Shown here: one piece after another, positions 7,356-11,517 of the stretch | Position numbering within the stretch: the stretch's first letter is position 1 | Layout of the letters: every line of letters starts with the position of its first letter | Source of the DNA: Candidatus Treponema caballi | Lineage (GTDB): Bacteria > Spirochaetota > Spirochaetia > Treponematales > Treponemataceae | Assembly (NCBI GenBank): GCA_018066285.1 | Contig: JAGHRS010000052.1 | Location: 1-64,000, forward strand | Direction of reading: 5' to 3' | Length of the DNA: 64,000 bases | Made by a program: the position numbers and the translations under genes | The notes under the pieces: generated by a model | Databases searched by the model: none | What the model saw: the letters and a program-made list of their open reading frames with translations, nothing else | Told to the model about the DNA's origin: nothing

Positions 7356-7790
7356 TTACGCAACCACAAATTCCTCGGGATACACCGCCTGCACTTTTGC
7401 GGCTGCGAAGTCCTTCTTGTTCCGGGTGATGATGTAATCCGCATCCACGGAAAACGCGCATTCATCCTGCAGGCAGTCTTCAAAATCGGGGAAGGCATCG
7501 TTGTTCACTGCGTCGAGAATCTGGTCTTTCTTAGCTCCAGCTATATCAAGGAATGACAGGAAAGACATCATCAGCGTTCTGCAGGTTGCATCCTCAAACT
7601 CTCTTCTGATTACATACCAGATTGTTGCAACAGAATGCTGTGAGACATAGCCATTGATAATAGTCCGCCTGCACAAATCAACAATTCTTTTCGACTCATC
7701 ATAGAACGGTTTCCGTTTCAACAGAACATCGAGGATGATATTTGTATCAATAAAAACTTTTGGCTTTGCCTGTCTTTTAGAATGGTCCAT
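7356..7790 (-). CDS. PIN-domain ribonuclease, toxin candidate
   Basis: A 144-residue PIN-domain protein. The first acidic residue is in FIDTNIILDVLLKRKPFYD (Asp15), a middle segment DFEDCLQDECA supplies further acids, and the C-terminal ITRNKKDF is the usual last motif. PIN toxins cut RNA, often tRNA or rRNA, when freed from their antitoxin. The gene overlaps the upstream XRE gene by 14 nt, with GGAGA just before its ATG inside that gene, so the two are almost certainly co-translated. The second pair at 17241-18127 has the same gene order. Confidence 0.85.
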   Translation of the reverse strand: MDHSKRQAKPKVFIDTNIILDVLLKRKPFYDESKRIVDLCRRTIINGYVSQHSVATIWYVIRREFEDATCRTLMMSFLSFLDIAGAKKDQILDAVNNDAFPDFEDCLQDECAFSVDADYIITRNKKDFAAAKVQAVYPEEFVVA

Positions 7791-8370
7791 ATTTCTCCTT
7801 CATCGCTTCATAGCGCATCTGATCATAATCCGGGTCTTTACCTTCATAGGTAAAAGGCCGTTTTTCCAGAATCTCCTGAATCGCCTTCCATGCAGCATCC
7901 TTGCGCGCCTGCTCTTCTTCAGGCGTTTCTTCTTCAACAATGACTTTAAGGCGCTGGCCTTCCTCGTACGGATACGGGCTGTTGCCGCCTATGACGTGAA
8001 TGGCGTCGTGAGAGAAATATGCGTCGTACGTGCGCGCCCGCACCTTACGTGGAGGAACCGGCAGAACAGGCTTTTCCGAAGCAGCATCAGCGGCATACGC
8101 AGGCTCGGCTTCATCAACTTCAAGCAGCTTATCAGTCACATCCGAATAAAGCGGTGTCTTCTGTCCGGGAACCGCGGGCACTTTATTCGCTTTTATGAAA
8201 GCTTCATCGACGTGATAGAAAGCGGCGAGACTGGCGACCGTCCTGTCAGACGGCACAACCGTGCCCGCCTCATACTTGTTGTACGACTGCCGTGAAAGCC
8301 CGATAGCCTCAGCAACCTTTTCCTGTGAATAACCGTTTACCGTGCGCAGATACTTCAAAATCTCTTTCAT
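7777..8370 (-). CDS. XRE-family regulator, antitoxin candidate
   Basis: A 197-residue protein with an N-terminal helix-turn-helix of the Cro/CI type (residues about 5-58, with YSQEKVAEAIGLSRQSYNKY as the core) and a long acidic, Pro/Ala-rich C-terminal part, including EEETPEEEQARKDAAWKAIQ, that could wrap the PIN partner. It precedes and overlaps the PIN gene. It is probably autoregulated: a consensus promoter and three copies of a 17-bp repeat lie directly upstream (8371-8440). The leader is very short. The HTH closely resembles that of 17241-17747. Confidence 0.85.
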   Translation of the reverse strand: MKEILKYLRTVNGYSQEKVAEAIGLSRQSYNKYEAGTVVPSDRTVASLAAFYHVDEAFIKANKVPAVPGQKTPLYSDVTDKLLEVDEAEPAYAADAASEKPVLPVPPRKVRARTYDAYFSHDAIHVIGGNSPYPYEEGQRLKVIVEEETPEEEQARKDAAWKAIQEILEKRPFTYEGKDPDYDQMRYEAMKEKYGPF

Positions 8371-8454: not shown

Positions 8455-8531
8455 CCAGGGGACGGTTCTCTGGGGCACGCCCGTTTGAGTACACTAGAGA
8501 ACCGTCCCCTGGTGCACGCCCGTTCAAGTAG
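8455..8531. repeat. GGGACGGTTC palindromic repeat element
   Basis: A perfect 17-bp inverted repeat (8455-8471 against 8496-8512, core GGGGACGGTTCTC) is separated by 24 nt. Each half is followed by a related tract, GCACGCCCGTTTGAGTAC at 8475-8492 and GCACGCCCGTTCAAGTAG at 8514-8531. The element lies in the 312-nt gap between the XRE gene and the XRE-FliM fusion. A third half-copy occurs inside prmC (45817-45840). No transposase is present in the window. It resembles the dispersed REP-like palindromes found in many bacterial genomes. Confidence 0.75.
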
Positions 8532-8540
8532 AATTTTGCG

Positions 8541-8568
8541 TAGACTTCATCCGTTTTCGTGCTATAAT
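8541..8568 (+). promoter_or_regulatory. Possible promoter for the XRE-FliM fusion gene
   Basis: A perfect TATAAT lies at 8563-8568, with TAGACT (four of six matches to TTGACA) at 8541-8546, spacing 16 nt. The leader to the ATG at 8683 is about 110 nt and includes AAGGAG shortly before the start. Confidence 0.45.
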
Positions 8569-8682
8569 CTACATAACTCTACTCAAAACTCTACCTGACT
8601 CAACTACCGGTAGGGTGACATATGGCGGAAGCGTGGCGATACTGAAATCAGCCTGCAGGCAAACACACCCAAGGAGAATGAA

Positions 8683-9981
8683 ATGAACGCAGAAAAAACA
8701 GGCGCGCTGATAAAGCAGCTCCGCACAAACAGGAACATGACACAGGCACAGCTTGCCGAGCTCGTGAACGTGAGCGACAAGGCTGTCTCAAAATGGGAGC
8801 GCGGTGACGGCTGCCCAGACATCACGATACTGCCGAAACTTGCGGAAGTACTCGGCGTTGAAATGGAAAGCCTTGTCGAGGGCGCAATCCCGAAAACGCA
8901 GGATGTAAGCGGCATGCATATCAAGGATTACAACTTCCGTCAGCCGGATGTATACCCGCGCCACATGCAGAAGGACATCCTCATGATGGGCGAGGAAATC
9001 AGGAAGAAAATCAACAAGGCGTTCACAGCCATCATGAATGAGCGCTGTGAGATTGCCCTTTTCGGCGTGGATCAGATGGTGAACATTGAGTTTTTGCGCT
9101 CAGTGCCCGCGACCTGCTTTTTCTACGACTTCGACTTCCAGAACAACGGCTTCTGCGTCGAGCTCGATCCTGAACTTGGCAAGATGCTTCTGAAGCAGGA
9201 TGCAGAGAAGTTTCCGTCCATCACAGAGTTTGACCTTGAAGTGCTCAAAAGCTGGTTCATGAAGGAATTTGCCGCTGCGTTTGCAGAAGAGGTTGCCGTA
9301 AATACTGACGGCAGCATAGACGCCGACCGCTTCTCCATCGACAGGGCACGCTCATGCGCCAACACGAACAGCGCGAACCAGGAAGAAATGCACATGATGC
9401 TGCTTCTTTCGTTCAAGTGCAGCGTGAACGGAACTGACCGCTTCCTGAATCTGCAGATGAGCGCGGGCCTTCTTGAAGACATGAGCCTCGCAGGCTTCTT
9501 CAAGGACGGCTACTCAAGCAGGATGAAGTTCCAGCTGCTTTCAAACGTCAAGGACAGGGCAGAGCCCGACAACGTGTTTGTGGAGTTCGGCCGCTTTCGC
9601 CCCGAAAACGTAAATCTGTCACACGGCCAGATTCTCGTCATGGACAAAAAGGAAACGGAGGGCCTTAACGTCGTGTATAAGGACCGCGTCATCCACTCGG
9701 GAAAGACGATTGTTGCGGATGAGCACATGGGCGTTGAGGTGCTTGAATCGCACCAGCTTGATGAAATCACCTACGACGAAGACGATTACCTGAGCGTACG
9801 TCTTGGAAGCACTTCCCTTACAGACGAACAGGTAAGTGCACTGCATCAGGGATCGTACATCATCCTTGACCAGATTGCAGGCGAGCCGCTCCAGATTGTC
9901 CGCTCAGGAAAGACTGTCGCAACCGGTGACATTGTGATTGCAGACGGCTTGTTCGCCATCCGCGTGCTGGAAAGCAAATAA
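8683..9981 (+). CDS. XRE DNA-binding domain fused to FliM-like and two SpoA domains
   Basis: A 432-residue protein with an unusual architecture. Residues about 6-60 are a Cro/CI helix-turn-helix (MTQAQLAELVNVSDKAVSKW). From about 80 the sequence follows the FliM middle domain: DYNFRQPDVYPRHMQKD matches the FliM opening YDFRRPD, then VDQMVNIEFLRSVP corresponds to the VDQxxYxEFxxSLP stretch. Two C-terminal segments look like SpoA/FliN folds: VFVEFGRFRPENVNLSHGQI (about 300-355) and LSVRLGSTSLTDEQ...GDIVIADGLFAIRVLES (about 370-432). FliM/FliN form the flagellar switch and SctQ the type III sorting platform. Why one would carry a DNA-binding domain is unknown. AAGGAG precedes the ATG. Confidence 0.8.
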   Translation: MNAEKTGALIKQLRTNRNMTQAQLAELVNVSDKAVSKWERGDGCPDITILPKLAEVLGVEMESLVEGAIPKTQDVSGMHIKDYNFRQPDVYPRHMQKDILMMGEEIRKKINKAFTAIMNERCEIALFGVDQMVNIEFLRSVPATCFFYDFDFQNNGFCVELDPELGKMLLKQDAEKFPSITEFDLEVLKSWFMKEFAAAFAEEVAVNTDGSIDADRFSIDRARSCANTNSANQEEMHMMLLLSFKCSVNGTDRFLNLQMSAGLLEDMSLAGFFKDGYSSRMKFQLLSNVKDRAEPDNVFVEFGRFRPENVNLSHGQILVMDKKETEGLNVVYKDRVIHSGKTIVADEHMGVEVLESHQLDEITYDEDDYLSVRLGSTSLTDEQVSALHQGSYIILDQIAGEPLQIVRSGKTVATGDIVIADGLFAIRVLESK

Positions 9982-10341: not shown

Positions 10342-11517
10342 ATGGACTATTCTAAACTGTACTTCTTTCAGATTGACGTGATGTGCGTCATTCCCCTTCT
10401 GAGCATTCTGCTGAATATCGCAAGGGACAACCGCAAAATCGGAATGGAAGAAATTTTCCTGCGGCGGATCATCCTTACAAATGTCGTCTATTGTCTTTCT
10501 GATACAGTTTACTTTCTCGTATATAAGTCAGGAATTCCTGACAGCATAACCATCCCGGTGATGTACGTCACCAATATCGTGTACGTTGGAATTCCGCTTG
10601 TTTACAGTCTTTTCATAACAAAATATGCGGCATACAAGCTGAACAACAGTAACCTGACCGATACGCTTTCCGGAAAAATCATCATAGCGCCGCTGATTAT
10701 CTGTTTCCTGCTGATGTTTTCAACTCCATTCACCCATTTCATATTCTACATAGATGGAAACGCGGAATATCACAGGGCAGCTGGCGCCTATCTCATTCCA
10801 GCAGTTGCCTGGGGTTATCTCCTGGCAGTTACTGTTGCAACAGCAATCAGAATCATGCGCACAGAAAGCGTCGTTGAAAAAGATGCACTCAGGCCACTGG
10901 AGTCATTCCTGGTTCTTCCATTCATAACAACGGTCATCCAGCTGCTTTTCTACGGATTATCTGTGGCGGCATACGGTTTCACAGTCTCAATCATCGTATT
11001 TTACATAAGGCGTCTGCAGAACCAGATTTCCAACGACGATCTTACAGGCCTGAAAAGCCGTGCTGAATTCAAGCGCTTTGTCACCAGCCACATAAAGAAG
11101 ACTCAGCAGCAGGATATGTTTGTCGTCATGCTCGACTTTGACAAGTTCAAGAAAATCAACGACACGTACGGACACATAGAAGGCGACAGGGCATTGCAGA
11201 ACGCCGCATTTGTTCTGAAAAAGGCATGTCTTGAAGTAAACCAGAACTACGTTCTGTCACGTTATGGCGGAGACGAGTTCATCATTGTGGGAAAATATGC
11301 AGATGGTGATGAAGACAGGAAGCTGAAACAGGCAGTTGATTCCAACATCCAGAAGATAAATGATTCAAGGATAAACAAATTCACCGTAAGCCTGAGCTTC
11401 GGTTTCGCCCATAAGGCCATTTCAAGCTATCAGGAATTCTGCACAATCATTTCTGAAGCTGACGAAGCAATGTACAAGGACAAACTGCAGAAAAAACAGG
11501 TCGACTTTTCGCGCTGA
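10342..11517 (+). CDS. Membrane diguanylate cyclase (GGDEF)
   Basis: A 391-residue protein that should make cyclic di-GMP from two GTP. About seven hydrophobic segments fill residues 1-215 and form a membrane sensor of unknown ligand. The GGDEF domain starts at DDLTGLKSRAEFKRF (about 232) and has FDKFKKINDTYGH and an intact YGGDEF active loop. The inhibitory RxxD site expected just before GGDEF is absent, so product inhibition may be lost. The ATG is preceded by TACACT only 6 nt upstream and has no Shine-Dalgarno, so the mRNA may be leaderless. Confidence 0.92.
   Translation: MDYSKLYFFQIDVMCVIPLLSILLNIARDNRKIGMEEIFLRRIILTNVVYCLSDTVYFLVYKSGIPDSITIPVMYVTNIVYVGIPLVYSLFITKYAAYKLNNSNLTDTLSGKIIIAPLIICFLLMFSTPFTHFIFYIDGNAEYHRAAGAYLIPAVAWGYLLAVTVATAIRIMRTESVVEKDALRPLESFLVLPFITTVIQLLFYGLSVAAYGFTVSIIVFYIRRLQNQISNDDLTGLKSRAEFKRFVTSHIKKTQQQDMFVVMLDFDKFKKINDTYGHIEGDRALQNAAFVLKKACLEVNQNYVLSRYGGDEFIIVGKYADGDEDRKLKQAVDSNIQKINDSRINKFTVSLSFGFAHKAISSYQEFCTIISEADEAMYKDKLQKKQVDFSR

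Follow-up and report, generated by a model that had tools for sequence, protein, structure and literature searches.

The known roles of FliM, FliN and SctQ are structural, in flagellar rotors and sorting platforms. In FliM, the GGXG motif couples the protein to FliG (PMC7355467). The two SpoA domains of SctQ form an intramolecular pseudodimer, and the protein is equivalent to a FliM-FliN fusion (PMC4832279). Switch proteins have also been connected to gene expression, as in polar flagellates FlhG contacts both FliM and FlrA, informing transcription (PMC12826062). That route depends on a separate ATPase, whereas in the locus described here the switch protein itself would be the DNA-binding partner. 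The window that we analysed (64,000 nucleotides of a contig of Candidatus Treponema caballi) encodes a protein in which an XRE helix-turn-helix (HTH) precedes a FliM-like body:

8683..9981, + strand: xre-fliM-spoA-spoA gene, 432 aa (intact ORF; Pfam, NCBIfam and PDB matches; 40 homologues)
8683..8880, + strand: XRE/Cro-CI helix-turn-helix, residues 1-66 (HTH_3 2.5e-16; conservation among the 40 homologues)
8917..9507, + strand: FliM middle (CheC-like) domain, residues 79-275, GGXG loop absent (profile match, hhalign)
9550..9750, + strand: SpoA1 (FliM_C-like), residues about 290-356 (second FliMN_C stretch; the hhalign alignment with FliM runs through it; 52% mean identity)
9778..9978, + strand: SpoA2 (FliN-like), residues 366-432 (FliMN_C 5e-16; fliN 4.5e-21; PDB 1yab/1o6a)

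Searches of Pfam with the single sequence placed HTH_3 (PF01381) at residues 10-62 (59.9 bits against a gathering score of 23, 2.5e-16) and FliMN_C/SpoA (PF01052) at two stretches, the best being 370-430 (58.8 bits against a cut-off of 23.8, 5e-16). The Pfam FliM model (PF02154) matched weakly at residues 83-152, below its cut-off of 27 (14.9 bits, E 0.025). When a five-member profile was compared to PDB sequences, the middle domain of solved FliM structures 4gc8/4fq0 was covered whole (columns 78-269, 1.2e-14), and solved FliN 1yab/1o6a was matched at columns 372-433 (5e-14). Profile-profile alignment with hhalign against 16 canonical FliM of Treponema relatives extended over 272 columns of the body, comprising the middle domain and SpoA1 (99.6%, E 1.2e-23), and SpoA2 aligned with FliY (96.9%). 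These matches bear out the preliminary description of the gene, which had proposed an N-terminal Cro/CI HTH, a FliM-like middle with the right order and anatomy and two SpoA segments with a FliN-like second one; the comparison of the C-terminal body with FliM and SpoA that it recommended returned both.

The body follows FliM (PF02154/TIGR01397) in the succession of a CheC-like middle domain and SpoA1, and it carries the FliM-type motifs IKDYNFRQPD and VDQMVNIEF. It differs from FliM in having an HTH where FliM has the EIDxLL peptide, in lacking GGXG and in the added SpoA2; furthermore, it is encoded off the flagellar operon, evolves fast and scores below the curated cut-offs. The tandem of two SpoA domains in one chain, evident from the two FliMN_C stretches and the alignment, is shared with SctQ and FliM-FliN fusions, and an intramolecular pseudodimer would be expected (PMC4832279). 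Unlike SctQ, the fusion has a recognisable FliM middle and a DNA-binding domain, and it scores 22.3 on the SctQ model TIGR02551, for which the cut-off is 100.8. No SctQ-like internal start with a Shine-Dalgarno sequence just ahead of SpoA2 was conserved among the fusion homologues; an invariant Met238 is positioned within the FliM domain, not before SpoA2. Meanwhile, SpoA2 resembles FliN/FliY (NCBIfam fliN, TIGR02480, 4.5e-21) but stays under the cut-off (74.5 vs 84.05 bits) and is part of a longer regulator.

A search of 274 genomes of the host's family yielded 40 full-length fusion homologues from three genera, with at most three copies per genome, and among 393 genomes drawn evenly from the phylum fusion matches were confined to the host's family. 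Further XRE-SpoA fusions, which the preliminary description had advised looking for, are thus present in Treponemataceae-like genomes. A phage or plasmid origin of the fusion was considered and rejected, as IMG/VR, INPHARED and PLSDB gave HTH-level matches only. A scan of genome contigs likewise yielded nothing but an HTH protein unrelated to the fusion. A frameshift or assembly error that joins an xre gene to a fliM-like gene might be suspected from the oddity of the architecture, and from nothing more; given 40 full-length homologues from separate assemblies with an identical junction, we assign hardly any probability to it, and the sequencing error that had been named as the case against the fusion is excluded. 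It is virtually certain that 8683-9981 encodes a real XRE - FliM-middle - SpoA - SpoA fusion. Both halves, the XRE HTH and the FliM/SpoA body, are of known kinds, and in the open-access literature searched we found no precedent for an XRE-FliM or XRE-SpoA fusion.

In a tree of the bodies, those of HTH type formed a single group (SH-aLRT 95). HTH-less FliM-SpoA-SpoA orphans were close to this group, and canonical FliM split from it (SH-aLRT 100). The simplest reading of this topology is one fusion event. The HTH-less orphans, found in Treponema-like relatives, constitute the neighbouring tree group and possess a body like that of the fusion (hhalign E 3.3e-56). They differ by the absence of the HTH, most have a FliM-type EIDxLL N-terminus, and several are encoded near AAA+ ATPases or FliG-like proteins. 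One subclade of the fusion family keeps a remnant of the FliM N-terminal peptide between HTH and body (SLTASEIEQLLHAISTGED at locus L180 vs VLSQDEIDQLLTAISSGDS in canonical FliM), which the window's clade has lost. The retention of this remnant suggests that the FliM to whose N-terminal side the HTH became joined probably still possessed the CheY-binding peptide.

The preliminary description had also pointed to the question of a separate FliM. On contig C63 of the host genome we found a canonical fliM of 345 aa (PF02154, E 5.5e-88) with fliY directly behind it, hence the fusion gene is not the cell's FliM. The GGXG motif occurs in 15 of 16 canonical FliM as opposed to 1 of 40 HTH-type proteins; in the alignment the loop is deleted, and it is absent from the window protein. 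The CheY-binding EIDxLL peptide at the N-terminus is likewise missing from the window protein, with a recognisable remnant in 5/40 HTH-type proteins. Because the known docking elements for FliG and CheY are gone, the fusion protein is probably not a canonical C-ring subunit. The HTH is the best-conserved domain among the 40 homologues, with a mean pairwise identity of 71% (26 of its 66 positions are at least 97% identical); the FliM middle averages 42% and the SpoA domains 50-52%. Between genomes G001 and G002, identity is 99.1% for canonical FliM, and within the fusion it is 91% in the HTH, 65% in the FliM middle, 84% in SpoA1 and 72% in SpoA2. SpoA1 reaches 84-85% in two close pairs, close to the level of the HTH. 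The fusion gene is located outside flagellar operons, and its neighbourhoods differ among homologues.

The region 5′ of the fusion gene contains TCTAC repeats and a CTAC/GTAG dyad placed against the -35 box:

8528..8545, - strand: predicted distal operator array in opposite orientation, GTCTACGCAAAATTCTAC (2 mismatches to the family consensus)
8577..8594, + strand: predicted proximal operator array, CTCTACTCAAAACTCTAC (0 mismatches to the family consensus)
8604..8613, no strand: palindrome CTACCGGTAG adjoining the -35 box; centre at about -41.5 relative to the predicted start (from the sequence)
8615..8643, + strand: sigma-70 type promoter with -35 GTGACA (8615-8620), 17-bp spacer and -10 GATACT (8638-8643) (consensus scan)
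8672..8677, + strand: Shine-Dalgarno AGGAGA (from the sequence)

The palindrome centre near -41.5 follows from a predicted transcription start set about 7 bp past the -10 box. A site centred near -41.5 is at the position typical of class II activators. Distal sites on the opposite strand similar to those of the window are also present in loci L068 and L071. Among the otherwise unlike upstream regions of the window's clade there is a common block, ACTCTACTCAAAATTCTACTC...AAACTAC.CGTCGGGTTACAA, with a corresponding block in another clade, GTAGAATTCTAC...TTCTAC..TTCCTACG...GTCGGGTGACAA, and a GTCGGGT(T/G)ACA (GTCGGGTKACA) block is conserved upstream of homologues. Within 250 bp upstream of the genes of the window's clade, the 18-mer occurred with at most 3 mismatches in 18/19 and GTCGGGTKACA with at most 2 in 19/19. 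The operator motif was not found in the 250 bp searched upstream of the L063 and L066 homologues. Dyads of the form CTAC-N5-GTAG/GTTG/GTCG, equivalent to the window palindrome, occur in further clades as well as at short XRE regulators. Because spacing within the predicted operator varies by subclade (N2 in the window but otherwise N5) and the window's clade retains the left half of the dyad poorly, it is uncertain which bases make up the exact site.

The closest HTHs outside the family belong to short treponemal XRE proteins of 194-202 aa (about 50-53% identity). A short XRE gene with its own promoter bears a CTAC-N5-GTAG/GTTG/GTGG dyad at an equal position before the -35 box. These short regulators resemble the fusion in HTH and promoter dyad; they differ in that their C-terminus is metal-site-like, possibly desulfoferrodoxin-like (Desulfoferrod_N 0.002, below cut-off), with no switch fold. 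Since the regulators with the closest HTH bear an identical dyad, HTH and operator were probably captured together from a short XRE regulator. A promoter-anchored dyad search of the host genome returned just two matches. One is the window promoter; the other belongs to an operon (L279:174-1469) that combines an FMN-reductase-like gene with that of a short XRE protein of weak desulfoferrodoxin similarity. This operon possibly represents a redox regulator with cross-talk, and a related short XRE protein, rather than the fusion, could read the sites.

To assess how specific the predicted operator is, we searched the family consensus 18-mer, YTCTACTCAAAAYTCTAC, with up to 2 mismatches. Within 730 kb of collected loci it gave 24 sites, 22 of them no more than 300 bp upstream of an intact family gene; these loci were selected for holding family genes, and whole-genome searches therefore weigh more. 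The other two sites are at L185 and L215, where the fusion gene is interrupted (two reading frames) with the operator still in the locus, a sign of gene turnover. Across the 2.9 Mb of the host genome, matches with at most 2 mismatches were limited to the two sites of the window promoter (8577-8594 and 8528-8545), the former being the only one with 0 mismatches, and at 3 mismatches the number of matches equalled that of the control. Of the sites in 20 other genomes, those with 0 mismatches each preceded a family gene, and several with 2 mismatches were inside chemoreceptor coding sequence. Those further operator-like sites in relatives that we inspected were rejected as targets, being inside coding genes, including chemoreceptors, or showing no consistent target. 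Likewise, the idea of a global flagellar regulator was set aside, as relaxed operator searches of the host genome gave only control-level matches away from the window promoter; weaker or rearranged target sites would escape the search patterns used.

Based on these findings, we propose that a FliM-FliN-fusion-type orphan switch protein gained the N-terminal HTH of a short treponemal XRE regulator, probably along with its promoter and operator. The HTH very likely binds the predicted operator, that is, the TCTAC and CTAC-GTAG sites directly upstream of its own -35 box, and its own promoter is likely the main or only strong target. Through homology with SctQ, SpoA1 and SpoA2 would form an intramolecular pseudodimer of the FliM_C:FliN-like kind, and this pseudodimer together with the CheC-like domain may multimerise the HTHs, resulting in cooperative binding to the repeated sites. 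Binding would then modulate the protein's own promoter. The site geometry near -41.5 leans to activation over occlusion, with a sign that is not readable from sequence. More speculatively, free SpoA partners (FliN/FliY, FliH) or another ligand might bind the body and shift the protein off or onto DNA, whereby its level would report the pool of unassembled partners. We consider it reasonably probable that the fusion is an autoregulatory DNA-binding protein, apparently with a single target, made of an orphan switch body and a captured HTH. In some bacteria of the Treponema family, then, a copy of a flagellar motor-switch protein is joined to a DNA-binding domain, and the conserved upstream sites suggest control of its own production.

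What the body senses, if anything, can be read in several ways. These are readings of the last, speculative step, which overlap with the proposed autoregulation, and their likelihoods are not meant to add up to one. The possibility to which we give most room, although it falls short of being probable, is that the switch fold is a pure scaffold, an oligomerisation or small-ligand module of an XRE regulator from which the link to motility has gone. The loss of the known C-ring docking elements, the fast divergence of the FliM middle and the lack of conserved neighbours are in line with this, whereas conservation is higher in the SpoA domains than in the middle domain, and the FliN pattern persists in SpoA2. 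The same conservation can be taken as a hint of a sensor of flagellar status, in which the SpoA pair would engage FliN/FliY or FliH and couple C-ring or export assembly to transcription, an outcome comparable to that of FlhG. Both SpoA domains are retained, SpoA2 is strongly FliN-like, SpoA1 is near the HTH in identity between close pairs, the host encodes canonical FliM and FliY, and a link from C-ring to transcription exists elsewhere (PMC12826062). Against such a sensor, GGXG is lost, as is the CheY peptide in the window's clade; the FliM middle diverges fast between G001 and G002, where canonical FliM is nearly frozen (65% vs 99%); no operator sites were found beyond the protein's own promoter in the host genome; and the gene is outside flagellar operons. 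We regard this reading as unlikely.

Another alternative is a dominant-negative or accessory switch subunit, which would use its HTH for homeostasis only, metering its own level while competing for FliN/FliY at the motor or export gate. An operator limited to its own gene and a body of the FliM-FliN-fusion type (PMC4832279) would suit such a role, but the FliG docking loop is absent, and we consider this reading quite improbable. Through its retained SpoA pair the protein might contact FliN/FliY/FliH; that the body still contacts a flagellar protein is a doubtful but not far-fetched proposition. Rather unlikely, in our view, is the full version, in which the FliM-FliN fold serves as the sensing part of a one-component transcription factor. 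Its SpoA pair would read the pool of C-ring or export subunits not yet assembled, the factor would adjust its own expression, and a rotor protein would bind DNA directly. The preliminary description had ventured both a switch fold reused in a regulator and a link from the flagellar switch to transcription. The former agrees with the HTH being the most conserved domain and with the conserved predicted operator at the protein's own promoter. The latter fared worse: GGXG and the CheY peptide are absent, and with the operator nowhere else in the host genome there is no sign of flagellar-gene regulation by the fusion protein. The fusion offers a small test system, consisting of one gene and one promoter, for the control of transcription by SpoA partners.

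The fusion gene shares its upstream intergenic region with a divergent gene pair:

7356..8370, - strand: XRE (7777-8370) and PIN-domain (7356-7790) pair (HTH_3 1.7e-12, PIN_3 1.6e-21)

This pair has its own strong promoter (8416-8388) and is a probable toxin-antitoxin-like module. It is not conserved beside the homologues, which indicates a neighbour that is not part of the fusion system. We also looked for a conserved partner gene, and no neighbour was common to the homologues beyond close synteny. At 8458-8509 there is an intergenic inverted repeat with AGAGAACCGTCCCC arms, a REP-like element with about 65 near-copies genome-wide (vs 0 in the control) that cluster on a few contigs. Downstream of the fusion, 10342-11517 (+ strand) encodes a GGDEF protein; similar GGDEF proteins are found close to the homologues at L073 and L075, which may merely reflect how common they are.

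The fusion family indicates that gene regulation can draw on switch proteins, and orphan paralogues of FliM and FliG, which have expanded in Treponema-like genomes, suggest more reuse of motor parts. HTH-less orphans of loci L080-L098 (L083:4759-5901, L090:5276-6415, L091:1063-2277) are located near double-AAA+ ATPases, WYL-like regulators and an HsdM-like methylase, as well as sigma-factor-like and orphan FliG-like proteins, so that switch parts appear reused in island-like operons. One of these orphan FliG (L090:2163-2837; FliG_C 2e-17, weak FliG_M) directly precedes an AAA+ ATPase and an orphan FliM-SpoA-SpoA. A single chain of 816 aa (L084:710-3160) combines a UPF0227 (esterase-like) domain, a FliM middle, two SpoA domains, FliG_M and FliG_C. 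Finally, L021:1314-3185, from a different family within the order, is a FliM-like ORF that continues into a putative FliG-like tail, beside a short FliN-like match.
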